From positions 620,001-684,000 of the forward strand of contig CP019454.1 of the NCBI GenBank assembly GCA_002951815.1: 64,000 nucleotides of DNA, read 5' to 3'. Below, piece by piece: positions 1 through 46,100 of the stretch. The translations under genes and the position numbers were made by a program. How positions within the stretch are numbered: the stretch's first letter is position 1; the number at the start of each line of letters is the position of its first letter. The notes beneath the pieces were generated by a model that saw only the letters and a list, made by a program, of their open reading frames with translations, ran no database searches and was not told the origin of the DNA. This DNA is from Sulfobacillus thermotolerans (GTDB taxonomy: Bacteria > Bacillota > Sulfobacillia > Sulfobacillales > Sulfobacillaceae).

Positions 1-291
1 TTGCATGGTAAAAAGTACATCTTGTGGGGATAGACGAAAATTGATGGGATGAATTATCGCTCCCAGCATAGACAAGGCATATTTCAATTCTAGGTAGCGG
101 TGACTGTTGATATCCATCACCCCGACGACGCAGCCTGGGCGAACACCTAAGGATTCGAGACAATTGGCCAACCGAACGCTGCGCGTATACACTTGTGCGT
201 AGTCAAAGGTGTGTGTTCCGCTGGTAACGGGAACCGTACTGTGCTGGTAGGCGGCATCTTCCAACAGCGCATGAACGACGACCTTATTCAT
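1..291 (-). CDS. Acyl-CoA synthetase / AMP-dependent ligase, N-terminal part (partial)
   Basis: The minus strand reads open from an ATG at 291 to the left edge, giving the first 97 residues of a longer protein. The sequence has the look of an AMP-dependent synthetase N-terminus: a TFDYAQVYTRSVRLANCL-like segment, then VGVMDINSHRYLELKYALSM and GAIIHPINFRLSP, where medium/long-chain acyl-CoA ligases carry the 'AVxxxNxxxYxExxxAxxxxGAxxxxxNxRL' pattern. The ATG follows a GGGGAGGGG ribosome binding site and overlaps the TAA of the acyl-CoA dehydrogenase by 8 bp, so the two are co-translated. It would activate a fatty or other carboxylic acid for the adjacent dehydrogenase. The ATP- and CoA-binding parts are outside the window, so the substrate cannot be judged. 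Confidence 0.8.
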   Translation of the reverse strand, partial: MNKVVVHALLEDAAYQHSTVPVTSGTHTFDYAQVYTRSVRLANCLESLGVRPGCVVGVMDINSHRYLELKYALSMLGAIIHPINFRLSPQDVLFTMQ

Positions 292-1897
292 CAACAACCC
301 CTCCCCAGATGTCCTGGTCGGTATCGGCCCAAAAGGGATATTCTTGATGTTCCAAAAACTTTGTGGCATAAAGGTCTGCCAATTTGGCATAGCGCTCCCC
401 TTGATCTTCCGCCATGTCGTAGAGCAGCGCCACCTGCGTAGCGTCTGCTATAGCGCGCAAGTCGTTCTTGGCGTGCCACTGAGCTTCGCGTCCGCTCATC
501 GCCTGTAAGTGATGAAGACTATTATCGAGGGTTTCTTGGGCAAGATGCGCCGCGTGCGTTCCGGCGTGAGTCAAATAGGCATGGAGTTCTTCAAGAACGG
601 CCTGGTGCGCGTGATGGCGTGTGACGGTTTCAAGAAAATCCAGGGCCTGAATGTTGCTAGGCCCCTCCCATATGGGAGTAATCAATGCTTCGCGGTGCCA
701 CCGGGAGACAGCATATTCTTCCAGGAAGCCTAAGCCACCAAACAACTCCATGCCCATGGCTGTCATGGCTGCTGCGTGTTCTGCGGTTCGGTTTTTGGCC
801 AAGTGGGTGACAAAGCGGGCGGCATGGTAGCGGTCCGTATAAGGTGGCCGATCCGTCCATGCGGCATCGAATTTTTGCACCCCGTAAAACGCCAGAGCTA
901 ATCCGCCTGCAGACCGCACTGCAAAGTCGGTGAGATCTCGCCGTATGAGCGGATGATTTTGCAACGTTGCCCCAAAACTGTGGCGACGTGCGACGCGTTC
1001 TAGGACTTCGAAGTGCGCTTTCTTGCCCGTGGCCATTGCCACAACGGCGTTGGCTAAGCGTGAGACGGTCAAGTTTTCTAATGTGTAGTATATGCCGTGG
1101 TTCGCCTGCCCAATGAGGTAGGCCTCACTGCCATTGAGTTCGACTTCTCCAGATGGCACCGCGCGCGTTGCGCTCTTGTCTTTTAAGCGACGCACCTGAA
1201 AGTTCAAGGTGCCTTGGCGGGTCAAACGAGGCAGTAAATAGAGCCCCAAACCTTTTGGGCCAGGCTGGCTACCATCCGGACGTGCCGTGGTAATCGCATA
1301 GTCGGTTAATCCGGCACCGCTTGCGAAATATTTGTCTCCAAAAAGTCTCCAGACCTCGCCATCGAAGGTGGCACGGGTTTCATTGGCACCTAAGTCGCTG
1401 CCGCCTTGCGATTCTGTCATCCACGTGGCTCCCCATGCTGCACCCGATAGCAAGTGGGATATGATGGCGTCTTTGCCGGGAATGCTGTCGTCGCCATATT
1501 TGTGCAGCGCATAAGCGGTTTGACCGGTGATCGTCAAAATGCAGCCTATGCCGGGGTCTCCAAGCAAATAGAGAAGGGCGTAGTGAAAAGGCCAGCCTTG
1601 GTGCTGGTAAGGGGGGGAGGCAATCCATGCACTTTGCGATAAAACGCTGCGCTCACTAGGACTAAGACGCACACGGTCAATGCGGTGGCCATCGAGATCA
1701 TGGGCGACTAATACTGGCGGTGCATCATGGTCAATATGGTAGCACGCTTCATAGACGTCACGGCCCGCCCATGCTCCGAACTCCTGCAGGCGTGGCCATT
1801 GTTCTTGAGAAGCTGGCCAAAAGTGACGAAGGACGGCCTGCAATTCGCGGTCGTTGTCGAAATGATTGGTGCCATAAGCATAGGAAATGCTTTCCAT
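284..1897 (-). CDS. AidB-like acyl-CoA dehydrogenase
   Basis: A 537-residue flavoprotein that would oxidise an acyl-CoA to the enoyl-CoA with FAD as cofactor. The FAD/substrate-binding motif WMTESQGGSD lies near residues 159-168 and matches the AidB branch, in which MTEKQGGSD is typical. The C-terminal region has a GGLGFLEEY segment and an ITPIWEGPSNIQ motif that corresponds to the catalytic-glutamate region of the family. Length (about 540) fits AidB-like enzymes rather than the 380-residue short forms. Its ATG is one base after the stop of the MerR regulator, and its binding site AAAGGAGGAG is the end of that regulator's coding sequence. It also overlaps the downstream acyl-CoA ligase. The context indicates fatty-acid or branched-chain acyl-CoA degradation; a DNA-repair role as proposed for E. 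coli AidB is less likely. Confidence 0.88.
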   Translation of the reverse strand: MESISYAYGTNHFDNDRELQAVLRHFWPASQEQWPRLQEFGAWAGRDVYEACYHIDHDAPPVLVAHDLDGHRIDRVRLSPSERSVLSQSAWIASPPYQHQGWPFHYALLYLLGDPGIGCILTITGQTAYALHKYGDDSIPGKDAIISHLLSGAAWGATWMTESQGGSDLGANETRATFDGEVWRLFGDKYFASGAGLTDYAITTARPDGSQPGPKGLGLYLLPRLTRQGTLNFQVRRLKDKSATRAVPSGEVELNGSEAYLIGQANHGIYYTLENLTVSRLANAVVAMATGKKAHFEVLERVARRHSFGATLQNHPLIRRDLTDFAVRSAGGLALAFYGVQKFDAAWTDRPPYTDRYHAARFVTHLAKNRTAEHAAAMTAMGMELFGGLGFLEEYAVSRWHREALITPIWEGPSNIQALDFLETVTRHHAHQAVLEELHAYLTHAGTHAAHLAQETLDNSLHHLQAMSGREAQWHAKNDLRAIADATQVALLYDMAEDQGERYAKLADLYATKFLEHQEYPFWADTDQDIWGGVVDE

Positions 1898-24382: not shown

Positions 24383-24706
24383 GTGGCGACGTATAACAAG
24401 TTGGTTCGGGATAAAATCCCTGACATCATTCAAGCAGCGGGAAAAACATGCCGCATTCGGACACTCAACGATGAAGAAATGCGACTCATGCTGCAACGCA
24501 AGCTGCACGAAGAAGTGCAAGAATATTCGAGTGCAAAGACCGATGTGGAAGCGTTAGAAGAACTGGCGGATATGCTAGAAGTCATGTGGGCCCTGGCAAA
24601 ACAGCACGGAGCCACCCCTGAACAGTTGCTTACGGTTCAAAACCAGAAACATCGCTTGCGCGGGGGGTTTGAACACCGCATTTTTTTAATCGATGTCGAT
24701 GACTGA
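24383..24706 (+). CDS. MazG-like nucleotide pyrophosphohydrolase
   Basis: A 107-residue all-alpha NTP pyrophosphatase of the MazG/phosphoribosyl-ATP pyrophosphohydrolase-like group. It begins YNKLVRDKIPDII, typical of the stand-alone 'house-cleaning' type, and has the metal ligands in LHEEVQEY (about 38-45) and EALEELADMLEVMWAL (about 55-70). It starts with GTG after TTAGGAGG. It overlaps the following helicase gene by 14 bp with no binding site for the latter, so the two are coupled. Proteins of this type near helicases are suspected of acting in anti-phage defence by removing or sensing nucleotides (inference). Confidence 0.87.
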   Translation: MATYNKLVRDKIPDIIQAAGKTCRIRTLNDEEMRLMLQRKLHEEVQEYSSAKTDVEALEELADMLEVMWALAKQHGATPEQLLTVQNQKHRLRGGFEHRIFLIDVDD

Positions 24707-27116
24707 TGTAACGCTTTTAACCCGAAATTTAGTGAAGGTTATCCGTTCCCAGTTGAAAGAAGCCCAAGCGGTTTATTGGCTGGTTGCATTTGCCATGCAG
24801 TCTGGGGTGGAGCTACTGCTGCGCGATTTGAAAGCCGCAGAAGCGGCCGGAACCGATATCAAAATTTTAGTGGGCGACTATCTTTATGTCACGGAGCCCG
24901 AGGCTTTGGTCCAGCTGCTTGACGCACTGCCGACCGCGGAACTGCGTCTATGGAAGAGCCAAGGCCAATCTTTTCATGCTAAAGCTTATCTCTTTGAACA
25001 TGCGAACGCGGCGGATACGATGATCGTGGGGTCGTCGAATTTGTCGCAATCGGCGATGACGAGTGGGATCGAATGGAATCTTTTAGCCCGCGACCGGTCA
25101 ACGCAAGCTGTGGAACATTTTATGCGGTTATTCTACGCGGATCGCACCGTGCCTCTTAATGCGATAACTCTGGCACACTATGTGAAGGATTGGCATCAAT
25201 TTCGTCAGCAGCATCCAGATCATCTGGCGACGTGGACTGAGCGCGAGGCATTGACCTTGATGTTCGATCCGGAAGATATGGCTCAGAGTCCTTCACCTGA
25301 TGCGCAGGTAACGCCGACGCTCTTGCCAACGCCAGTGCAAGCGGAAGCACTTGCCGCATTGTCAGACACGCGGCAAGAAGGCTATTCTAAAGCCTTGGTG
25401 GTATTGCCTACGGGACTCGGCAAAACGTATCTGGCAGCATTTTTTGCCCAACAGTTTCGCCGTATTTTGTTTGTGGCCCACCGTGATGAAATTCTTCGCC
25501 AGGCATTGGCGACGTTTCAGTCCGTGATGCACCAGCGGTCATTTGCTGTCTATACAGGAAAGCACGATGATGGACGTGAGAGTATTTTTGCTTCGGTGTT
25601 TACGTTGGCAAGCGAAAAGCATCGCCGGCAATTTTCACCCACGGCCTTTGATCTCATGGTTGTTGATGAATTTCATCATGCGGCCGCCGCATCGTATCAA
25701 CGGCTGCTAACGTATTTTCGCCCCCAATTTTTATTAGGGCTTACGGCGACACCTGACCGGACAGATGGACGCGATATCTTTTCGCTATGCGATGGGAATG
25801 TGGCGTTTCAGGTATCATTGCCCGATGCTATCACACGTCAATGGTTGTCGCCTTTTTGGTATGTGGGGGTTTATGATCCGATCGATTACAGCGCACTGCG
25901 GTGGCGCCGCACCCATTATGATCCGAACGATCTTCTGCGTGCCCAGTTATCGGAATCCCATGTCGCTGCGGTCTATCAAGCATGGCAGGCTTATCATCAA
26001 ACGCGTACACTTGGGTTCTGTAGTTCTATCCGCCATGCCGAATTCTTGGCCGAACAGTTTGCCAAACGGGGAGTGCGCAGCACGTGGGTTTATGCTGGTT
26101 CGGGATTGGGGCAACGCCATCAAGTGATTCAGGAACTCATGCAAGGGCAGTGGGATATTGTTTTCAGTGTCGACCTCTTTAATGAAGGTGTGGATATTCC
26201 TGCGGTCGACACCATTTTACTGGTGAGGCCTACCGATTCATCGATTGTGTTTATTCAGCAGTTGGGACGAGGACTAAGGCGCGCGCCAAACAAAACGCAC
26301 TGTGTCATCATCGATTTAGTCGGCAATTACCGTAATGTCGAGGCCAAACTTATGTGGTTAGGCATCAAAAACCCCGCCGCTTTAGTCACGTCAGGACTCC
26401 CGGCAATCCGGCGGCAATTGCCCCCGGATTGCCGGTTCGACTTGGACTTGCAAAGTCTTAATGTCCTTGAGCGCATGATGCGCCAGCAAACACCACGAAA
26501 GCAAGTCGTGATGGATGCCTATCGCCACTTGCAAGAAGATTTGGGACGTCCCCCTACGTACTTAGAGTTTCACCTGCAATCCGGTGTGCCAGGGACCGCT
26601 GTACATCAGGAATTTGGCACGTATATTGGGCTGAAATACTTGTTAGGTGTCTTAACGCCAGACGAAGTTCAGGCCTGGGATAAATATCAGAAATGGTTGC
26701 TCGAAGTTGAATCCACGCTGATGGTGAAAAGCTATAAGATGGTTTTGCTTAAGGCTATGTTGGCGCGCGGCCCGCTGCAGTGGGTCGCACCCGTGACCGC
26801 GCGAGATGTGGCGGCTTATTTTCACCAATATCTGACGGCCGAGCCCCACCGCATGCGCGTAGACTTTTCCGACAAAACGACGATGCCCCTTAGAACCTAT
26901 CACCCGGAACGCATGGCGAATTTGATTCAGCGTATGCCAATGAAACAATGGAGTCAGAGCAGTGCGGGATGGGTGCAGCTCACCGGCGATACGCTGCAAA
27001 TTCGTGTGGGGGCGGCGGATGCGCGGACACTCACGATATTAGCGAATTGGACCGAGCAAATTGCCGATTATCGTCTGCATGCTTATTTTGAACGCAAGAG
27101 TCAGGCGCTGACGTAA
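24693..27116 (+). CDS. PLD-nuclease/SF2 helicase fusion, DUF3427-like
   Basis: An 807-residue protein. Residues 1-170 are a phospholipase D-like nuclease domain with one HxK half-site (SFHAKAYLFE, then VGSSNLSQSAMTSGIEWN). Residues 215-560 are a superfamily 2 helicase: Walker A VLPTGLGKT, DEFH box (VVDEFHHAAA), motif III LTATPDRTDGRD, and motif VI QQLGRGLRRA. The C-terminal 250 residues resemble the DUF3427 tail (RPPTYLEFHLQ). Start at ATG 24693 or 24699; no ribosome binding site, translation coupled to the MazG-like gene. Relatives are found in defence islands; the function has not been shown. The nuclease plus helicase suggests DNA degradation or restriction. Confidence 0.87.
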   Translation: MSMTDVTLLTRNLVKVIRSQLKEAQAVYWLVAFAMQSGVELLLRDLKAAEAAGTDIKILVGDYLYVTEPEALVQLLDALPTAELRLWKSQGQSFHAKAYLFEHANAADTMIVGSSNLSQSAMTSGIEWNLLARDRSTQAVEHFMRLFYADRTVPLNAITLAHYVKDWHQFRQQHPDHLATWTEREALTLMFDPEDMAQSPSPDAQVTPTLLPTPVQAEALAALSDTRQEGYSKALVVLPTGLGKTYLAAFFAQQFRRILFVAHRDEILRQALATFQSVMHQRSFAVYTGKHDDGRESIFASVFTLASEKHRRQFSPTAFDLMVVDEFHHAAAASYQRLLTYFRPQFLLGLTATPDRTDGRDIFSLCDGNVAFQVSLPDAITRQWLSPFWYVGVYDPIDYSALRWRRTHYDPNDLLRAQLSESHVAAVYQAWQAYHQTRTLGFCSSIRHAEFLAEQFAKRGVRSTWVYAGSGLGQRHQVIQELMQGQWDIVFSVDLFNEGVDIPAVDTILLVRPTDSSIVFIQQLGRGLRRAPNKTHCVIIDLVGNYRNVEAKLMWLGIKNPAALVTSGLPAIRRQLPPDCRFDLDLQSLNVLERMMRQQTPRKQVVMDAYRHLQEDLGRPPTYLEFHLQSGVPGTAVHQEFGTYIGLKYLLGVLTPDEVQAWDKYQKWLLEVESTLMVKSYKMVLLKAMLARGPLQWVAPVTARDVAAYFHQYLTAEPHRMRVDFSDKTTMPLRTYHPERMANLIQRMPMKQWSQSSAGWVQLTGDTLQIRVGAADARTLTILANWTEQIADYRLHAYFERKSQALT

Positions 27117-28451: not shown

Positions 28452-29912
28452 ATGGACGCATATATTGGGCTCGATGTTGGAACACAAGGGATGAAAGGGG
28501 TGGTGGTGGATGACGCGGGGAGCGTGTTAGACACGGCGTATGCCCCCTATCCGACGCAAAGTCCCGCGCCTGGCTGGCAGGAGCAAAATCCGCAAGATTG
28601 GTTGATGGCCTATGATGAGGTGTTGCAACGCCTTATGGCAAAACATCTGCCGGTCGTATACCGGGGCATTGGGTTCACAGGGCAAATGCATACGACGGTG
28701 GCATGTAACGCCAATGGAGTCCCAGTGCGCCCTGCCATATTATGGTCTGATACGCGGGCAGCTGGGTACGGGGAAGCGCTGGAGCAGCGATATGGCCTAG
28801 ATAGCCTTGTGCGCCAAACAGCGAATAAACCGCTGGCCAATTTTTCTGTGTTGCGTTTGCTTTGGATGAAAGATCATGAACCCCAACACTACCGAACCAT
28901 TCAGCGGGTGGCCGTGGCTAAGGACTGGGTACGGGATCAAGTCACGGGAACTTTCATGGCGGACGTCACGGATGGGTCAGGGACGTATTTGTTTGATGTG
29001 GGGCGAAGGCAATGGAACTGGGAATGGATGCACACGTTATCGATTCCACGTCAATGGTGGGCGGATGCGGTGGAGTCACCTACCGTGGTTGGAGACTTAA
29101 GGCGCGGGCCACAAGCATTGCAGCACGTTCCGGTTGTCGCCGGAGCTGGGGATCAGGAGGCAAGTGCTGTTGGCACGGGGCTGACCAATGAAGGCGATTT
29201 AGGGGTCTCCATCGGCACTTCGGGCGTCATTTTTTGGCCGCGGTCGGGATTTTCTCTGCCTCCCCACCCGTCGATTCATGCTTTTTGCCATGCTGTCCCG
29301 GGGATGTGGCACTGGATGGCGGTCACGCAATCAGCCGCCTTATCTTTGCGCTGGTACCGTGACACCTTTGCTCCCACATTATCCTACCGTGACTTAGACC
29401 AACTCGCGGCATCAAGCGCTGCCGGTAGCCACGGGCTCTTGTTTTTTCCCTATTTGCAAGGAGAACGGGCTCCTTTAATGAATGCCCATGCGCAAGGCAC
29501 GTTAATGGGATTAAGGCCGGAGCATCGGGCTTCGGATATTGTGCGGGCGATTTTGGAGGGCGTCGTGTTTAGTCTCTTCCATGCGTGGCTAATGATGAAG
29601 CCAGCGCAGAAAAAGTCATTAGAGCGCATGGTGGCGACCGGGGGCGGTGCTCAAAGCACATTATGGATGCAAATTTTGGCGGATGTCTTTCAAATACCGG
29701 TAACCGTCGTCGACGATCCGGGAGCCGCTGTTGGCGCCGCATGGCTAGCCCGGCGCGCTATTAGCGGGGATGTTAAGGAGCTGTCGCTGCGTGTGCGAAA
29801 AGTCGTTGAGCCCAGTCAAAATCAAGGGGTCTATGCCGAGCGCTTTCACGCATATCGCAGCATGGCGATGAATCTTAACGGGCTTTGGGGGAAGGAAACG
29901 GTTCAGGGTTGA
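28452..29912 (+). CDS. xylB: FGGY-family carbohydrate kinase, xylulokinase-like
   Basis: A 486-residue kinase of the FGGY family that phosphorylates D-xylulose in the pentose route. YIGLDVGTQGMKGVVVD at the N-terminus is the phosphate-binding turn; GIGFTGQMHTTV (about 74-85) and AILWSDTRA (about 96-104) are typical of xylulokinases, VSIGTSGVIFW and ATGGGAQSTLWMQILADVF are the second nucleotide-binding half. ATG after GGGAGGAAG. Its stop overlaps the convergent XRE/TPR regulator gene by 10 bp. The family also includes other pentulose kinases, so the sugar is probable rather than certain. Confidence 0.88.
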   Translation: MDAYIGLDVGTQGMKGVVVDDAGSVLDTAYAPYPTQSPAPGWQEQNPQDWLMAYDEVLQRLMAKHLPVVYRGIGFTGQMHTTVACNANGVPVRPAILWSDTRAAGYGEALEQRYGLDSLVRQTANKPLANFSVLRLLWMKDHEPQHYRTIQRVAVAKDWVRDQVTGTFMADVTDGSGTYLFDVGRRQWNWEWMHTLSIPRQWWADAVESPTVVGDLRRGPQALQHVPVVAGAGDQEASAVGTGLTNEGDLGVSIGTSGVIFWPRSGFSLPPHPSIHAFCHAVPGMWHWMAVTQSAALSLRWYRDTFAPTLSYRDLDQLAASSAAGSHGLLFFPYLQGERAPLMNAHAQGTLMGLRPEHRASDIVRAILEGVVFSLFHAWLMMKPAQKKSLERMVATGGGAQSTLWMQILADVFQIPVTVVDDPGAAVGAAWLARRAISGDVKELSLRVRKVVEPSQNQGVYAERFHAYRSMAMNLNGLWGKETVQG

Positions 29913-31069
29913 CTGGCAATGATGTGAAAGCTACATGTCAAGCGTTGTTCATAATCGTCAAGGACTAGGTTATCCGTCTGAAAAGGCGGGGTCGGCAGCC
30001 CTAGCTTTTGAGCCAACAAAATCATTGATGCCGTATCCTGAGTGTCTTTGGGGTCTGGAACTAAGGCGTATTGCTGGGCATAAGCAGCTGCTTCTGGCAA
30101 GTGGCCCGCCAAGATGTGCGTGAGACAGAGCTCGGCAATGGTCGATCCCCGTTGTCGGGTTTGGGTGTCGCCGTACAAGGCTAAAGCCTTCTCTAATTGC
30201 TCAATGGCCAAGGCGAATTCCCCGCATTGTCGGTGCAAGACACCCATATTGTGGTAGATGCGTGCAGTTTGTAACGGCGTGGCCTTATCGATAAGGGTTT
30301 CGAATTGTTGGATAAGGCCTTTGTCTTTTCCGTGAAGGGCCCAATAACAAATCAGTTCACCGAGATGCGTTTCGACATTAATGACAGGATCGGCGAAGGG
30401 ATGGCGCTTGACTTGGCAATAGAGGGTTAGGGCGTCCTTATAGTTTTTATTTGCTAATAGAATATTGGCCTTCGTGTAGTCAACCAGGTTGGCTTCACGA
30501 GGCCGGTGAAGGGCTAAAAAAATTTCCTTTGCTTGGGCCAACAATGGCTGGCATTGACGGCCGTTGTGATGTTCCGCAAGAGAGAGTGCTAACGCATGAT
30601 TATACAACGCGACGCCTTTGCGATAACTAATGGCTACATGATTCAGTGCATTGACCATTAACTGACTCCATTGCAACATTTGTTTGAAGTCCTGTTTTTT
30701 TAAAGAAATCTTCTCCATGAGATAATAGACTTTGCTATTGTAGCGTCCATTGTAAGAGCCTTGACTAAACGCCAGGGCATGTAAGGCAATGGCTTCAGCT
30801 AGTTTTACGTTATCGGCTTCTAACATCAATTCCGCAAGTCGACAAAGAGTTGGCGGTCTTCTTTCAACCTGCAAATATTCCAAATACCAAACATCATCGG
30901 GCCAAGTCAACGCAATGGCGAGCTGCCGCATGACGCTGGGGGAGGGAATACGTGTACCCGCCTCGATTGCCAAAAGATATGATTTTGAAATCCCTGCTTT
31001 ACTGGCAGCATCGGTTGAGGTCAGTCCCATTTTCTGCCGACGGCGTTTGACGATTGTATTTAAACTCAT
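29903..31069 (-). CDS. XRE-family regulator with TPR repeats (RRNPP-type peptide receptor candidate)
   Basis: A 388-residue cytoplasmic protein. Residues 4-58 are an XRE helix-turn-helix (VKRRRQKMGLTSTDAASKAG, then ISKSYLLAIEAGTRIPS). The rest, about 70-388, is all-helical with repeated TPR-like units, such as ARIYHNMGVLHRQCGEFALA with FALAIEQLEKALALYGD and YTKANILLANKNYKDALTLY. HTH plus TPR at this length is the plan of RRNPP receptors (Rap, Rgg, NprR, PlcR, PrgX, AimR), which bind re-imported signalling peptides. It starts at ATG after AGAGGG. It is divergent from a short secreted peptide gene 65 bp away, with a palindrome between them, the layout of rgg/shp pairs. No transmembrane or kinase part is present. 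Confidence 0.85.
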   Translation of the reverse strand: MSLNTIVKRRRQKMGLTSTDAASKAGISKSYLLAIEAGTRIPSPSVMRQLAIALTWPDDVWYLEYLQVERRPPTLCRLAELMLEADNVKLAEAIALHALAFSQGSYNGRYNSKVYYLMEKISLKKQDFKQMLQWSQLMVNALNHVAISYRKGVALYNHALALSLAEHHNGRQCQPLLAQAKEIFLALHRPREANLVDYTKANILLANKNYKDALTLYCQVKRHPFADPVINVETHLGELICYWALHGKDKGLIQQFETLIDKATPLQTARIYHNMGVLHRQCGEFALAIEQLEKALALYGDTQTRQRGSTIAELCLTHILAGHLPEAAAYAQQYALVPDPKDTQDTASMILLAQKLGLPTPPFQTDNLVLDDYEQRLTCSFHIIASQP

Positions 31070-31092
31070 TGTCTACCCTCTGGTAAGTTTCA

Positions 31093-31121
31093 TTGTACTC
31101 GAGTACTAGTATCATTATACG
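31093..31121 (+). promoter_or_regulatory. Palindromic operator and promoter between receptor and peptide genes
   Basis: GTACTCGAGTAC (31095-31106) is a perfect 12-bp palindrome, and TACTAGTA (31104-31111) partly repeats it. A plus-strand promoter TTGTAC (31093-31098)-17-TATACG (31116-31121) has the palindrome in its -35/spacer. On the minus strand a TATAAT (31119-31114) could be the -10 of the receptor gene, so one operator would control both directions. The plus-strand boxes leave a very short leader, so the exact -10 is uncertain. Confidence 0.6.
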
Positions 31122-31134
31122 TGAGGTGAGAACA

Positions 31135-31299
31135 ATGAATAAAATTTTACGGGCCATAATAGTGATGGCCGGATTGGCTGCAGTTGTGGGAGTTCTGCCC
31201 ACCCACATAGGTCTTGGAGCTACGAGCACGCAAGCTGCCGTGAGCCCATTGGGGAGTACGGGGCCTGCCCCGATTATGTTAGGAACCAGACAGGCGTAA
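31135..31299 (+). CDS. Small secreted pro-peptide (candidate signalling peptide precursor)
   Basis: A 54-residue protein with a clear signal sequence: basic N-region MNKILR, a hydrophobic core AIIVMAGLAAVVGVL, then a polar region with a plausible signal peptidase site after TSTQA. Cleavage there leaves AVSPLGSTGPAPIMLGTRQA, a 20-residue tail without cysteines. It starts at the ATG at 31135 after GTGAGGTGAG; an in-frame ATG at 31093 lies in the promoter. A terminator follows. Size, secretion signal and divergent position next to an HTH-TPR protein match RRNPP propeptides, which are cut again to 5-10 residue signals. The active part cannot be told; the C-terminal end is most usual. Confidence 0.72.
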   Translation: MNKILRAIIVMAGLAAVVGVLPTHIGLGATSTQAAVSPLGSTGPAPIMLGTRQA

Positions 31300-31347
31300 C
31301 AATAGCCGCAAGGCCTTCTATGTGAATGGAGTGTTCCCGCTCTCAAA

Positions 31348-31391
31348 GGGAGGCGTCATCAGGTGATACTTGGTCGCCTCCTTATTTTATA
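31348..31391 (+). terminator. Terminator of the pro-peptide gene
   Basis: GGGAGGCG (31348-31355) pairs with CGCCTCC (31375-31381), enclosing a 19-base loop, and is followed by TTATTTTAT. It isolates the peptide gene from soeA downstream. Confidence 0.75.
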
Positions 31392-40280: not shown

Positions 40281-40970
40281 TTGAGTGAAGGAGATGACAG
40301 CTCGTCAGCGTTGCGTCCCATTGTGGCGCAAGGACTAGCTGAGGAAGTGTTAGAACGTCTTAAACAAGCTATTTTGGATGGGGATTTGCGGCCAGGCCAA
40401 CGGCTAATTGAGCATACTTTGGCCAACGAATTGGGCGTTTCGCGCACACCAGTGCGGGAGGCGTTAAAGCATTTAGCAGCTGAAGGCCTTGTGACGGTCG
40501 ATGGTCGAAGAGGCTTGGTGGTATCTCGGCTTTCTCTAGAAGTGATTGAAGAAGCGTATATGGTTAGAGAAGTCCTGGAAGGTCTCGCGGCACGTTTGGC
40601 TAGCGAGCATCCATACGACCCTGCTGATCTCCAGAAACTCCAGAGGGCTTTGGATGCCATGGAGCAAGGAGGGCTATCACCGAAAGCCTTTGATGCCGTG
40701 CATGGGGAGTTTCACGATACAGTACGGAATATGGCGCACAACGCATATTTAGACCGCTATTTAGGCGAACTCACGGCGTTTCGGACACGCATGGTGTCCC
40801 TAGACTGGATTCCGAAGACACGCGTGACGCGATCGTTGGAAGAGCATCGATCGATTTATGAGGCCATTCGCGATGGACGATCTGACGATGCTGAGCGTTT
40901 AGCTCGGCAGCATGTTGCGAGTACACGAAAAGCCCTATTGCAACGGTTGCAAGACCATGCGGATGCGTAA
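40281..40970 (+). CDS. GntR-family regulator with FCD ligand-binding domain
   Basis: A 229-residue regulator of the FadR subfamily. The winged helix spans about residues 12-75 (LKQAILDGDLRPGQRLIEHT, then LGVSRTPVREALKHLAAEGLV), and the rest is the all-helical FCD domain with the metal/ligand histidines in HGEFHDTVRNMAHN and EEHRSIYEAI. I start it at the TTG at 40281, seven bases after GGAGGAG; the frame runs 19 codons further upstream without a binding site. It lies between the isochorismatase-fold hydrolase and the ABC transporter genes and likely controls both. Confidence 0.88.
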   Translation: MSEGDDSSSALRPIVAQGLAEEVLERLKQAILDGDLRPGQRLIEHTLANELGVSRTPVREALKHLAAEGLVTVDGRRGLVVSRLSLEVIEEAYMVREVLEGLAARLASEHPYDPADLQKLQRALDAMEQGGLSPKAFDAVHGEFHDTVRNMAHNAYLDRYLGELTAFRTRMVSLDWIPKTRVTRSLEEHRSIYEAIRDGRSDDAERLARQHVASTRKALLQRLQDHADA

Positions 40971-41007
40971 GTTTCATCATTCTGAGCAAACAGTGGGAGG
41001 GAAGCGC

Positions 41008-42570
41008 ATGAACAAGAAACAAGGATTAGGTATGGCAGCAGTATTGCTAACAGGCAGCATGCTGGCGGGTTGCGGAACATCTTCCGCGCAAAGTACGGTA
41101 TCTAGCCACTCTGGAGCCCCTGTTGAGGCTTCACCCGTGCGGGGCGGAACGTTAAATGTGGGGATTGATTCCGATTTCGTGACGTTGAATCCTGCTATGT
41201 CATCGGCTTTGATTGACCGTCAAGCCTTCATCAATATTTTTGATCCCTTGCTAAAATTGTCCCCCACCATGCAAGTGGAACCCAATCTGGTAACACACTG
41301 GACCGTGACCAATGGGGGCACGACATACACCTTGTTCTTGCGCCACGGGGTCAAGTTTCAAGATGGCACCCCCTTTAATGCGCAGGCTGTCATTTACAAC
41401 TGGGATTGGGAAATGAATCCAGCTAACGCATCGCCGCGACTGAGCGACTTGTCACTCGTGACACATTTGGCGGCGCCCAATCCTTATGAAATCGTCGTGA
41501 CGCTTAAGGCCCCCTATTCGGCGTTTCTCTCTGTGCTGACAGGACGAACAGGAATGATTTCATCGCCAACGGCCATGAAAAAATGGGGGAGTGCGTATGG
41601 GCTTCATCCCGTCGGCACCGGGCCATTTAAGTTTGTGCAATGGATTAAGAACGATCACATGATTTTGGAACGCAATCCGCTGTATTGGAAAAAGAACCAA
41701 CCCTATCTAAACAAAATTGTCTACACACCTATCACCAATCCCGTTCAGGAATATAATGCATTGGTGACGGGGCAGGTCAACGTGATTGATAGTGTGCCGT
41801 ATCAAGATGTGAACAGCCTCGCGTCGAACACGTCGTTGCGGTATGCGGAAAACCCTGGGTTGGGATATGCCGATATGGAACTTAATACGCAGGCATCGCC
41901 ACTAAACAATGTTCACAACCGAGAAGCCATTGACTATGCCATTAATCGTCAAGCGCTGAACCAATTATTGTACTTTGGGCACGCGGTACCTGCCTATACC
42001 CAGTTTTCTCCTGCATCGTGGGCATATGATCCCCACATTAAGGTGCCATATTCAGATGCTTTAGCGCGGCAACAATTGGCGAAAGCTGGCAATCCCAAAG
42101 GATTTTCCTTTACCTTGCTGGGAGAAAATGATCCCGCCACTGTTCAAGAGATGGAAGCGATTCAAAGCGAGTTAGCAAAAGTTGGTATCACGATGCACAT
42201 AGAGCCCGTTGACTTCACGACCCTGCTGACCGATGCCATCAATGGCAATTATCAAGCTGATTTGCTCGGGTGGAGCGGCAGACCCGATCCGGACCAAAAT
42301 AGCTATGCATTTGACACGACCGGCGGTAGCTTTAACGACCCGCGTTACTCCAACTCTCAAGTGGATAGCTTACTTTTGAAGGCGCGGGAAGCTGCCTCGG
42401 AAAGTGTGCGCAAGCAGTACTACGACGAGGCGGCGACTATCGTGTTACATCAAGCTCCCTATATCTTCCTTGAATACACTCCAGTGATTCAGGCGTGGTC
42501 CCCGAGCGTTCATGGATTTCAGGTTTACCCCGATGGATTGATGCGTTTTTCGAAGACATGGATTAAGTAG
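41008..42570 (+). CDS. Peptide/solute ABC transporter substrate-binding lipoprotein
   Basis: A 520-residue family 5 solute-binding protein. The N-terminus MNKKQGLGMAAVLLTGSML ends in the lipobox LAGC, so it is a membrane-anchored lipoprotein. VRGGTLNVGIDSDFVTLNPA is the family start, followed by WTVTNGGTTYTLFLRHGVKF and the C-terminal substrate-cleft region with GWSGRPDPDQNSYAF. ATG at 41008 after GGGAGGG. It is followed by two DppB/DppC-type permeases. Binds oligopeptides, glutathione or other solutes; with a gamma-glutamyltransferase-like gene downstream, glutamyl compounds are plausible. Confidence 0.92.
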   Translation: MNKKQGLGMAAVLLTGSMLAGCGTSSAQSTVSSHSGAPVEASPVRGGTLNVGIDSDFVTLNPAMSSALIDRQAFINIFDPLLKLSPTMQVEPNLVTHWTVTNGGTTYTLFLRHGVKFQDGTPFNAQAVIYNWDWEMNPANASPRLSDLSLVTHLAAPNPYEIVVTLKAPYSAFLSVLTGRTGMISSPTAMKKWGSAYGLHPVGTGPFKFVQWIKNDHMILERNPLYWKKNQPYLNKIVYTPITNPVQEYNALVTGQVNVIDSVPYQDVNSLASNTSLRYAENPGLGYADMELNTQASPLNNVHNREAIDYAINRQALNQLLYFGHAVPAYTQFSPASWAYDPHIKVPYSDALARQQLAKAGNPKGFSFTLLGENDPATVQEMEAIQSELAKVGITMHIEPVDFTTLLTDAINGNYQADLLGWSGRPDPDQNSYAFDTTGGSFNDPRYSNSQVDSLLLKAREAASESVRKQYYDEAATIVLHQAPYIFLEYTPVIQAWSPSVHGFQVYPDGLMRFSKTWIK

Positions 42571-42579
42571 GCGAAGCCA

Positions 42580-43524
42580 ATGGTAACCTTTATTGTGCGC
42601 CGTATTCTTTCGCTGCTCCCCGTCGCGTTTATCGTGCTTGTGGTGACATTTAGTTTGATTCACCTGACGCCCGGCAATCCCGCGTACACAATATTGGGGG
42701 ACCAGGCCAGTCCTCAGGCGGTGCATTTGTTGGATGTGAAGATGGGACTGACGCGGCCATTGCCGCAACAGTTTGCGGCGTATATCGGGCAGGTGGCGCG
42801 TGGCAATTTAGGCGTGTCGCTTCTCGACGGACAATCCGTATTATCTCTGATTATTACCCGTCTTCCCGTGACCTTGGAGCTTGCCGTCCTTGCCGTTATT
42901 GTGTCGCTCTTGATTGCTATTCCTACGGGAATCTTCGCCGCCTATCGGCCCAACACCTGGGTGGATAACCTGTCGCGTCTTTTGGCGTTGGTCGGGGCGG
43001 CGATCCCCAATTTTTGGCTGGCATTGCTGCTGGTGTATATCTTTGCCGTGGGACTGCACTGGCTTCCCTCTTTAGGGTGGGTGCCACTGACACAAAGCGT
43101 GCCGGGTAATTTGGTTCATTTGGTGTTGCCGGTGATTGTCTTAGCGCTGCCCTTGGCTGCTGTGACATCGCGGGTGTTACGCGGTGAATTAATCGAAGTC
43201 ATGCATTTGCTTTACATTCAAGTCGCTCGCGCGAAAGGCATCAGCGAATGGGCTGTCGTTATGCACCATGGTGTGCGCAATGCGTTGGTGCCCGTGGTGA
43301 CTGTCGTGGGGTTGCAAGTGGGTGCCTTGCTGGGAGGAGTTGTCATTACAGAAACGATTTTTTCCTTGCCGGGGATGGGACAATTGGTCGTCAATGCGAT
43401 TTTTGACCGGGATTACCCGGTACTAGACGGCTCGGTCTTGTTCATGGCATTTGTGGTATTGCTGGCCAATTTGTGTGTTGATCTTGTCTATGCGTGGCTT
43501 GACCCGCGTATTCGTTACAACTGA
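42580..43524 (+). CDS. ABC transporter permease, DppB/GsiC type
   Basis: A 314-residue membrane protein with six spans. It begins FIVRRILSLLPVAFIVLVVTF and contains LTPGNPAYTILGDQAS, hallmarks of DppB/GsiC permeases, and the cytoplasmic EAA-like loop ARAKGISEWAVVMHHGVRNAL that contacts the ATPase. It is 9 bp after the binding protein gene. It forms a heterodimer with the following permease. No ATP-binding subunit is found in the cluster. Confidence 0.92.
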   Translation: MVTFIVRRILSLLPVAFIVLVVTFSLIHLTPGNPAYTILGDQASPQAVHLLDVKMGLTRPLPQQFAAYIGQVARGNLGVSLLDGQSVLSLIITRLPVTLELAVLAVIVSLLIAIPTGIFAAYRPNTWVDNLSRLLALVGAAIPNFWLALLLVYIFAVGLHWLPSLGWVPLTQSVPGNLVHLVLPVIVLALPLAAVTSRVLRGELIEVMHLLYIQVARAKGISEWAVVMHHGVRNALVPVVTVVGLQVGALLGGVVITETIFSLPGMGQLVVNAIFDRDYPVLDGSVLFMAFVVLLANLCVDLVYAWLDPRIRYN

Positions 43525-43550
43525 CCACGAAGCCACTGCGAAGGGAGGTC

Positions 43551-44432
43551 ATGAATGTGGTCGAGCAGCAGATGTCATCAGAGGTGATCGTGGTCACGGA
43601 TGCTCAAGGCCATAGCCGCGCGCTGCGCCGTTTTTGGAAAAACAAACTGGGTGTCATGGGACTTATTATTGTGGTGGGATTTGTGCTGATGGCGCTGTTT
43701 GCGCCGGGGATTGCGCCCTTTTCTCCATTGGCGACGCATTTTAGCCATGCCTTTCAGCCGCCATCCGCTCGTCATTGGTTAGGAACGGATGAACTGGGTC
43801 GGGATGTTCTTTCGCGGATCATTTACGGAGCCCGCAGTTCCTTGGTTTCTGGTATTTTAATTGTGGCCATTGGCGTAGGCATTGGTGTACCTGTTGGGCT
43901 GGTCTCGGGCTATTACGGCGGGTGGATTGACGACGTGATTATGCGCGTCGTGGACGCGGCTCTCGCGTTTCCGGCATTGGTTCTCGCGTTAGCCATTGCG
44001 TGGATTTTAGGGCCGTCTCTTATTCATGCGGTATGGGCCATAGCGGCCGTCACCATCCCCCAATTTGCCCGGATTACCCGTGGGCAGGTGTTGAGTGCGC
44101 GGACACGAGAGTATGTCGAAGCGGCACGCTGTTTAGGGGCATCGCCATGGCGGATAATGCTTCACCATGTTTTGCGCAATGCCGCTACCCCTATTCTTGT
44201 GGTGGCCACTTTGAATATTGGAAGTGCGATTCTGGCGGTGGCCAGCCTATCTTTCCTAGGATTGGGGCCGCCTCCACCCGCCCCTAATTGGGGCGCGATG
44301 TTGCAAGATGGGTCGCAGTATTTAAATATGGCACCATGGATTTCATTGTTTCCGGGGCTTGCGATTTTCTTAGCTGTTTTGGGCTTTTCCACGTTAGGGG
44401 ATGGATTACGGGATGTGCTGGACCCAAAGTAG
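43551..44432 (+). CDS. ABC transporter permease, DppC/GsiD type
   Basis: A 293-residue permease of the DppC type. [20 protein letters not shown] is the first span, [21 protein letters not shown] is the DppC signature, and [20 protein letters not shown] is the ATPase-contact loop. Start uncertain: the ATG at 43551 stands only two bases after GGGAGG, whereas the GTG at 43557 has the ideal spacing. The ATPase subunits usually encoded next are missing; a gamma-glutamyltransferase-like gene follows instead, so ATPases must come from another locus. Confidence 0.92.
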
Positions 44433-44498
44433 GACGGTGTTTTGCCGCGTGGCGTCTGAGACAATCACAGTGACGGCAACAAGGAAGGGATTGATGGG

Positions 44499-46100
44499 AT
44501 GAAATGGGATGCGAATGTCTATCCGAGTGCCTCACGGCGGACGGTGGTTTACGCGACACATGGAATGGTCGCTACGGCCCAACCGCTGGCGGCACAAGCA
44601 GGATTAGAAATTTTACAAGCGGGTGGTAACGCCATCGACGCCGCGATTGCGACAGCCGCATGTCTAACTGTTGTGGAGCCTACTTCCAATGGCTTAGGCG
44701 GTGACGCCTTTGCCATGGTGTGGTCAGGCGGCAGGTTGACTGGGCTTAATGCAAGTGGCCCCGCGCCTCAGGGCCTTACCAAAGACTGGATAAGAGAGCG
44801 TGGATTTCATGAAATGCCTGCAACAGGATGGGGTGCGGTGACGATACCCGGAATTCCGGCGGCATGGGCGGTGTTGTCCGAGCGATTTGGGTCGATGCCT
44901 TTGGAAGTTGTGTTGAAGCCGGCCATACGACTTGCGCGCGAGGGATTCCCGGTGTCACCAACGGTTGCGCATTTTTGGCAACGAGCGGCTGAACGGTACC
45001 GGGAAGTGCTGACCGGCCCAGAATTTTCGGCATGGTTTGAGACCTTTACAAAGCATGGTCGTGCACCAGTGCCAGGAGAGCGATGGGTCTTGCCTGACCA
45101 TGCCAAGACATTACAAGAGATTGCCAATACGCATGCCGAGTCTTTTTACCGCGGCCGACTCGCCCAAGAAATGGTACGCTTCTCGCACGCCACGGGCGGC
45201 ATTTTGTCATTAAAGGATTTCGGAGCATATGCTCCCGAGTGGGTTGACCCGTTGTCTGTCGCATTTCGCGACTATGAGGTATGGGAGCTGCCGCCCAATG
45301 GCCAAGGGCTTGTGGCGTTAATGGCGCTAAAAATTCTCGAAGGGCTGGATGCTCATTCAGAGGAAGAGCGGATCCACCAACAAATTGAAGCGCTAAAACT
45401 GGCTTTTGCCGATGCGCAGCGCTACTTGGCTGACCCGCAGTATATGGCGAGTCCCCCCGCCGCATTTTTGGACGCGGCCTATCTGCAAGAACGACGGAGC
45501 TTGATTGGCCCCAAGGCCGCTTTGCCGCACGCAGGATTGCCGAGACCCGGAGGTACCGTATATTTGGCCACAGCGGATAATCAAGGCAATATGGTGTCCT
45601 ATATTCAAAGCAATTTTGCTGGGTTTGGATCCGGGCTGGTCGTGCCAGGAACGGGAATTGCGCTTCAGAATCGCGGGCAATTGTTTTCTCTAGAAGAGGG
45701 TCATCCCAATATATTGGAACCCGGTAAAAGGCCATATCATACCATTATTCCCGGATTTTTAACACAGAAGGGAAAGCCGATTGGCCCATTTGGCGTAATG
45801 GGTGGGTTTATGCAGCCGCAAGGACACGTTCAAGTCTTAAGCCGTGTTCTGGAGGGGGGAATGAACCCGCAAGCCGCTTTAGATGCCCCACGATTTTATT
45901 GGGAACAAGGCATGCATGTGGTCGTGGAGCACACCATGGCTCCGGAAATTGTGGCGGCTTTGCGCGAGCGCGGCCATGATGTGCAAGTTACGACGGAAGT
46001 GGCGCCGTTCGGACGGGGTCAAATCGTGTGGCAAGACGGGAGTGGCGTGCTCATTGGAGCCACGGAACCGCGTGCGGATGGCATGGTAGCCGCCTGGTAA
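44499..46100 (+). CDS. Gamma-glutamyltransferase-like Ntn hydrolase
   Basis: A 533-residue precursor of the gamma-glutamyltranspeptidase family, which self-cleaves at a threonine and then hydrolyses or transfers gamma-glutamyl or related acyl groups. The predicted nucleophile is Thr353 in GGTVYLATADNQGN. LEILQAGGNAIDAAIATAA (37-55) and NGLGGDAFAMVW are the large-subunit signatures, and GFGSGLVVPGTGIALQNRG belongs to the small subunit. No signal peptide is seen, so it should be cytoplasmic, like YwrD. It follows the ABC permeases, so it may process the imported compound. Convergent with the MFS gene across a terminator. Confidence 0.9.
   Translation: MKWDANVYPSASRRTVVYATHGMVATAQPLAAQAGLEILQAGGNAIDAAIATAACLTVVEPTSNGLGGDAFAMVWSGGRLTGLNASGPAPQGLTKDWIRERGFHEMPATGWGAVTIPGIPAAWAVLSERFGSMPLEVVLKPAIRLAREGFPVSPTVAHFWQRAAERYREVLTGPEFSAWFETFTKHGRAPVPGERWVLPDHAKTLQEIANTHAESFYRGRLAQEMVRFSHATGGILSLKDFGAYAPEWVDPLSVAFRDYEVWELPPNGQGLVALMALKILEGLDAHSEEERIHQQIEALKLAFADAQRYLADPQYMASPPAAFLDAAYLQERRSLIGPKAALPHAGLPRPGGTVYLATADNQGNMVSYIQSNFAGFGSGLVVPGTGIALQNRGQLFSLEEGHPNILEPGKRPYHTIIPGFLTQKGKPIGPFGVMGGFMQPQGHVQVLSRVLEGGMNPQAALDAPRFYWEQGMHVVVEHTMAPEIVAALRERGHDVQVTTEVAPFGRGQIVWQDGSGVLIGATEPRADGMVAAW

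Follow-up and report, generated by a model that had tools for sequence, protein, structure and literature searches.

A candidate RRNPP-type receptor and its divergent, predicted secreted pro-peptide in Sulfobacillus thermotolerans

Introduction

Does a regulator gene of Sulfobacillus thermotolerans form a peptide signalling pair with the small gene that faces it? The two genes lie in a 64,000-bp stretch of DNA (bases 620001-684000 of a single 3,317,203-bp contig; hereafter the window). One encodes a helix-turn-helix (HTH) protein with TPR repeats, and the other, divergent from it, is an open reading frame (ORF) with the features of a secreted pro-peptide. The original prediction took the two for a new pair of the RRNPP type, in which a secreted peptide is re-imported and bound by a TPR receptor. 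It also placed a palindrome over the promoter between the genes, gave the peptide gene its own terminator, and named the flanking soeABC operon or xylB as possible targets.

We followed this locus through related genomes and through a structural model of the receptor. Our interpretation, to which we give a probability of about 80%, is that the pair is a quorum-sensing-type module of the RRNPP (RRNPPA) group, whose peptide would leave the cell, be trimmed and, after re-import, bind to the receptor.

Results

The gene pair

The genes themselves are as originally described (Table 1). The receptor is a 388-residue XRE-type protein with Pfam matches to HTH_3 (E 3.8e-11) and to TPR_2, which exceeds its curated cut-off; TPR_12 is marginally under its own (29.3 vs 30.1 bits). 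The facing 54-residue pro-peptide starts with ATG behind a good ribosome-binding site and has a basic N-terminus and a hydrophobic core, as in a secretion leader. An alternative TTG start of the same frame at 31093 would give 68 residues and is without a good ribosome-binding site. The terminator is also present, as a hairpin of -21.8 kcal/mol (71-base stretch). At its 3' end the receptor gene overlaps xylB convergently by ~10 bp (29903-29912).

Co-occurrence of receptor and small ORF

Searching 61 genomes with the receptor as the sole query identified relatives in the same genus (locus L003, 34% identity) and in another family of the class (L004, 27%). When a profile of seven relatives (A1) was run over 154 genomes of the class, ~30 clear family members stood above ~175 bits and HTH-only matches below ~85 bits, with a few fragmentary copies in between. 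Strong matches to a 28-member profile, searched against 398 genomes of the phylum, were confined to the class containing Sulfobacillus, and two others scored ~90-106 bits. HTH_3 is matched in 28/28 family members and TPR_12 in 26/28, and no member matched an RRNPP-specific Pfam family at E<=0.01. Because plasmids gave HTH-level matches only and the viral contigs searched held no relative, a phage or plasmid origin is unsupported. Two receptor genes, L064 (G039) and L082 (G038), have in-frame stop codons and are apparently decaying; the divergent pro-peptide ORF of L064 is intact.

The first loci compared had divergent ORFs of 51-62 residues with a ribosome-binding site and leader. We scored the family by a single rule, a divergent ORF of 45-80 residues, no more than 320 bp away, that has a leader and a ribosome-binding site, and found one beside 17 of the 29 scorable receptors. 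The same rule was matched by 0/266 control long-ORF genes of the same genomes, and by 0/135 of those with free upstream space (Fisher, 3e-20 and 1e-15, respectively; 1e-14 with near-identical groups collapsed). The lack of control matches indicates that the rule is specific, and the divergent pairing with a predicted secreted ORF goes beyond chance.

Most of the 12 receptors without a matching ORF belong to tandem pairs of receptors. Four stand second in such a pair; four others stand first, and their divergent neighbour is an EAL-domain gene. L070 has two peptide genes farther upstream, at 436-646 bp, and in L071, near-identical to L070, the flank is cut by a contig end. The L070 genes (35-208 and 242-418, minus strand) are tandem, near-identical pro-peptide genes of 57 and 58 residues, both ending RPDSAASPGDPGVI. 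Relatives with only 20-34% receptor identity keep the small ORF. A homology search with the 54-residue pro-peptide gave itself as the only convincing match, as expected for pro-peptides. In most relatives, then, position and C-terminal motif are kept, and the co-occurrence anticipated in the original prediction is borne out.

A C-terminal code in the pro-peptides

The C-terminal region of the window pro-peptide is STGPAPIML, then GTRQA, and that of L003 is NANGPDPVIL. EPNGPLPPQPM is found in L004, L063 and L065, VPNVGPPWPPTV or -TL in L062 and L064, SPGPTWPPVL in L007, NGPGDPGPF in L072 and L074, and NGPGDPGPLFP.. in L076. L079 has NAPGGPGPLVPQG (with LIPQG in L081), L069 NGPGGPGTL.., L067 APGDPGTL and L070 SPGDPGVI; VGPPWPPTV is a further form of the shared C-terminal core. 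The pattern [GA]P.{1,3}P.{0,2}[LIVMF], which was chosen after the sequences were seen, is matched by 11 of 12 independent peptides, compared with 2.5 expected when their own letters are shuffled (p<=5e-5).

In the genus trio L004, L063 and L065, the peptides end in the same 12 residues, TEPNGPLPPQPM, whereas about half of the leader positions differ. When L004 is compared with L065, these 12 codons show five synonymous and zero amino-acid changes, and purifying selection on the C-terminal codons is visible at this level. The signal thus appears to lie in a short C-terminal stretch, represented by the shared GPxP core and, in one genus, by the invariant last 12 residues. Peptide classes track receptor clades in a maximum-likelihood tree, and genomes G099 and G100 each carry several receptors with different peptide codes, comparable to the Rap-Phr paralogues. 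This pattern resembles that of known pheromone families, although co-inheritance alone would give the same clade-tracking.

The receptor fold and its groove asparagines

An AlphaFold2 (AF2) model built with a 28-member alignment has a mean predicted local distance difference test score (pLDDT) of 93.2 and a predicted template-modelling score (pTM) of 0.86. Five HTH helices are followed by paired helices to the C-terminus, with the paired-helix span at residues 72-356. The best-matching bacterial regulators in the PDB are phi3T Rap (Z 21.9) and NprR (Z 21.7 and 20.8); further matches are RapJ with CSF (Z 21.3) and RapF with PhrF (Z 20.7). In sequence, the family profile matches PlcR (E 1.1e-10) and pLS20 Rap (3.9e-9).

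Three asparagines, N157, N202 and N274, are conserved in most members and lie on A-helices 10, 12 and 16 of the model; the N274 position is Asn in 68% of the receptor family. When the family profile is aligned by hhalign with a profile of seven Raps (96%, E 1.4e-9), N274 falls on the sole invariant Asn of the Rap TPR region (..TARIYHNMGVLHRQ.. over ..TAKIYHNLGLIRWQ..). The seven-Rap profile is needed for this match, which is weak (18%) with a single Rap sequence. By position and motif, the invariant Rap residue probably corresponds to RapF Asn227, which is described as strictly conserved and as binding the peptide, through a backbone contact (PMC3601957). A similar residue, N208, is found on helix 12 of ComR (PMC5131891). 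RRNPPA receptors have 5 to 9 TPRs, which build a superhelix around a concave groove. The confident predicted superhelix, its closest bacterial regulators and the conserved asparagines together indicate that the TPR groove expected of the receptor is present.

The intergenic region

The perfect palindrome is where it had been placed. A TATAAT hexamer assigned to the receptor was recognised by eye only, and a scan for promoters detected a sigma-70-type promoter at neither gene. A palindrome as long as GTACTCGAGTAC is expected by chance in ~2% of 65-bp stretches. The 3.3-Mb genome has one exact copy, and a search for a regulon through the palindrome gave no second exact site and one site with a single mismatch. 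Among the other family members, only L079 and L081 have a palindrome in common, and its sequence, TTCCATGGAA, is different.

Table 1. Positions of the receptor gene, the pro-peptide gene and their features in the window.
Feature	Position	Strand	Evidence
HTH-TPR receptor / transcription regulator, 388 residues	29903..31069, stop included	-	ATG-started ORF; Pfam HTH_3 and TPR; AF2 model
XRE-type helix-turn-helix domain, N-terminal, residues 1-68	30866..31069	-	HTH_3 at residues 7-54; model helices 1-5
TPR superhelix, putative peptide-binding domain, residues 70-388	29906..30862	-	conserved Asn columns; Rap and NprR structural matches
Groove-helix asparagines	N157 30599-30601; N202 30464-30466; N274 30248-30250	-	conserved columns, helices 10, 12, 16
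Divergent promoter region, 65 bp	31070..31134	.	sequence
TATAAT hexamer for receptor	31119-31114	-	by eye only
Perfect palindrome GTACTCGAGTAC, candidate autoregulation operator	31095..31106	.	sequence; single exact genome copy
Ribosome-binding site GAGGTGA of peptide gene	31123..31129	+	5 bp before ATG; ribosome-binding-site score
Pro-peptide gene, 54 residues, MNKILRAIIVMAGLAAVVGVLPTHIGLGATSTQA/AVSPLGSTGPAPIMLGTRQA	31135..31299	+	ORF, ribosome-binding site, hydrophobic leader, positional counterparts in relatives
Conserved C-terminal core STGPAPIML, residues 41-49, likely pheromone region	31255..31281	+	GPxP..[LIVMF] motif; L003 NGPDPVIL
Intrinsic terminator of peptide gene: stem 31347-31383, then TTATTTTA	31347..31391	+	RNA fold; terminator-like site 31361-31379

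Neighbouring genes and the EAL association

The suggestion that soeABC or xylB is the target did not find support. The peptide gene ends at its own terminator, and since the relatives L003 and L004 have different neighbours, neither is supported as a conserved target. By ORF reading, L003 lies beside genes for an MFS transporter and an MBL-fold protein, and L004 beside a peptidase-like and a flavoprotein-like gene.

A different arrangement is seen in an acid-mine metagenome lineage, where four receptors have a divergent EAL-domain gene in the peptide gene's place (Pfam EAL, E 1e-29 to 2e-36). EAL domains are cyclic di-GMP (c-di-GMP) phosphodiesterases. Should the receptor act on the divergent promoter, one output in this lineage would be c-di-GMP turnover. 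The tandem receptor pairs at L068, L073, L075 and L080 are flanked by divergent EAL-domain genes, and a second EAL-like ORF is also present. In L068 and L075 the far end carries a pro-peptide gene whose product ends SPGDPGLI/SPGDPGVI, so that receptor, phosphodiesterase and peptide genes form arrays on contig ends.

Other HTH-TPR proteins and nearby genes

Two Sulfobacillus genomes carry a second, different HTH-TPR regulator (L094, 1527-2807 in G004; L027, 1501-2697 in G003; 92% identical). It has a divergent 41-residue leader-bearing ORF, MKHWQLVTVISLILLWMATFKPADGYIPTPSPITDVYHMVL, with a different conserved C-terminus, and may represent a second peptide system. Less closely related HTH-TPR proteins of the class (L085, L088, L090, L093 and L096; 50-85 bits) have a leader-bearing ORF of 46-72 residues 16-60 bp downstream on the same strand, which is the classical order of receptor, then peptide. 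Yet another HTH-TPR protein, in a 443-residue open frame (L164, G000:C1:497351-498310), is a conserved regulator, present as a single copy in nearly all genomes of the genus and family.

Elsewhere in the window, at 24383-27116, a 107-residue ORF resembling nucleotide pyrophosphohydrolases is followed by an 807-residue helicase. The helicase is similar to RadD and to type I restriction subunit R, and its N-terminal part is phospholipase-D-like; the two genes are possibly a DNA repair or defence unit.

Discussion

A model for the pair

From these data we infer the following sequence of events. The 54-residue peptide would leave the cell through the Sec pathway and be processed to a short form, containing Pro and Gly, around STGPAPIML, the GTRQA tail of the S. 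thermotolerans peptide being either removed or tolerated. One of the many Opp/Dpp-type transporters would then re-import it, and the peptide, in extended form, would bind the concave TPR groove, where Asn274 may hold its backbone, probably together with Asn202 and Asn157. Binding would alter the contact of the HTH domain with the divergent promoter, such that the receptor and peptide genes would be autoregulated and other genes probably regulated as well. Matches to the oligopeptide-binding family number more than 20 in the genome; binding proteins of the Opp/Dpp type are necessary, not sufficient, for peptide re-import. An oligopeptide-type ABC transporter operon lies in the window at 40912-46100, ~10 kb from the pair, and is a possible importer among the many of this genome. 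Its SBP_bac_5 match (41272-42330) is inside the ORF 40912-42570, which is followed by permease-like ORFs of 314 and 293 residues in the same direction.

We considered how else this arrangement might be explained. The small protein could be a secreted peptide that acts outside the cell, with antimicrobial, metal- or envelope-active function, and the HTH-TPR protein its dedicated regulator, sensing something else through the TPR domain. An XRE regulator with a divergent small secreted protein would give the same gene order, and the peptides are highly variable apart from the C-terminus. However, the part that is conserved is a core of ~8-12 residues at or near the C-terminus, as in pheromone precursors, and the inspected flanks hold no modification enzyme, exporter or immunity gene. 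In addition, the duplicated peptide genes of L070, with their common C-terminus, resemble tandem RRNPP pro-peptides (PMC11343458). We regard an external function as improbable.

The odds are lower still for a cell-autonomous regulator/anti-regulator arrangement, in which the receptor would recognise the small protein within the cell, either ahead of export or as a leader held in the membrane. A clear secretion leader is retained though its sequence drifts, and Opp-type importers are abundant in the genome; both argue against this arrangement, even if no importer is linked to the pair in the two relatives examined (L003 and L004) and cytoplasmic binding of unprocessed peptide is compatible with the sequence. 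That the small ORF is a chance reading frame beside an ordinary regulator, as the frequency of short ORFs and the want of a convincing homologue of the peptide might suggest, can be rejected, as far as comparison reaches, in view of the empty control set, the shared C-terminal motif with its codon-level conservation, and the persistence of the ORF in distant relatives.

Several observations weigh against a peptide-sensing module. Eukaryotic TPR proteins such as LGN (Z 23.4) score slightly above Rap as matches to the receptor model, and the fold alone is therefore not decisive; profile and fold matches of one TPR protein to another are easily obtained. The co-occurrence rule and its thresholds were fixed after the positives had been seen, and signal peptides were called by a hydrophobicity rule, not SignalP. 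Two receptors, L025 and L101, have no peptide gene in the searched flank and are apparent orphans. The family is patchy, with the receptor in 2/8 genomes of the genus, and the GTACTCGAGTAC palindrome is not conserved among relatives of the receptor, an absence for which we rejected it as a family-wide operator. Finally, the support for the module comes from sequence comparison and a predicted model.

With these points in mind, a quorum-sensing-type module remains the interpretation that we favour. A broader proposal, that the class containing Sulfobacillus has an RRNPPA subfamily of its own, with GPxP pheromones working at ~pH 1-3, several orthogonal pairs per genome, and EAL/c-di-GMP wiring in one acid-mine lineage, is more tentative, and we put it at somewhat less than an even chance. 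A receptor-peptide family that is conserved and whose C-terminal code can be read offers directly testable pheromones in bioleaching bacteria, and raises the question of how short peptides signal in strong acid.

Comparison with known RRNPP systems

RRNPP_detector has been run on all complete Firmicutes genomes, and the pair may be in its supplementary lists (PMC10075063). Such lists aside, the RRNPP-diversity literature (PMC10075063, PMC9765709, PMC12700828) makes no mention of Sulfobacillus peptide signalling. A quorum-sensing survey of 83 acidophiles, 17 of them Sulfobacillus, reports only N-acyl homoserine lactone (AHL), autoinducer-3 (AI-3) and diffusible signal factor (DSF)-type systems and an AHL-degrading enzyme (PMC9040811). 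Within the same bounds, this literature is consistent with the claim that organisms of this kind have no described pair.

The nearest structural likeness is to NprR-NprX and Rap-Phr, of the nine-TPR clan, which have a TPR superhelix of similar length, with which model residues 68-388 align, and a Sec-type pro-peptide with a C-terminal pheromone. Sequence identity to NprR and Rap is only ~10-13%, Rap is without the HTH domain that the window receptor has, and the signal core here is Pro/Gly-rich (GPxP), unlike those of the two systems. In the Bacillales AimR, PlcR, NprR and Rap systems, the peptide gene lies immediately downstream of the receptor (PMC9765709), whereas here it is divergent. PlcR-PapR likewise combines an HTH and TPR transcription factor with an adjacent Sec-exported pro-peptide, and the Foldseek match to PlcR has E 2.7e-4, but PlcR is shorter (~285 residues), with five TPRs, and has another peptide sequence and gene order.

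In Rgg-SHP systems, the receptor and short peptide genes are divergent and have one promoter region in common. The window pair resembles them in this order and shared promoter region. SHP peptides are shorter, and leave the cell through PptAB or by other routes rather than by means of a long Sec leader (PMC12700828), and Rgg is without recognisable TPR sequences (PMC9765709). A DPG motif is widespread in the peptides of AimR-AimP and of Paenibacillaceae RRNPP subfamily 08 (PMC12700828); it also occurs in several pro-peptides here (NGPGDPGPF, APGDPGTL, SPGDPGVI), which may be coincidence. The receptors of AimR and subfamily 08 have degenerate TPRs, and AimR is found in phages, whereas the viral contigs searched held no relative of the family described here.

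The best relatives in the PDB share only ~8-14% identity with the receptor. The pair has the testable RRNPPA features and, judged by PDB and Pfam matches, appears not to be close in sequence to Rap, NprR, PlcR, Rgg, PrgX, AimR, AloR or QssR. Because it combines these features with a divergent peptide gene and apparently lies outside the named subfamilies, we propose that it represents a new RRNPP-type subfamily, which would give the RRNPPA family a deep branch whose peptide gene is divergent, and which hints that peptide sensing may be linked to c-di-GMP.

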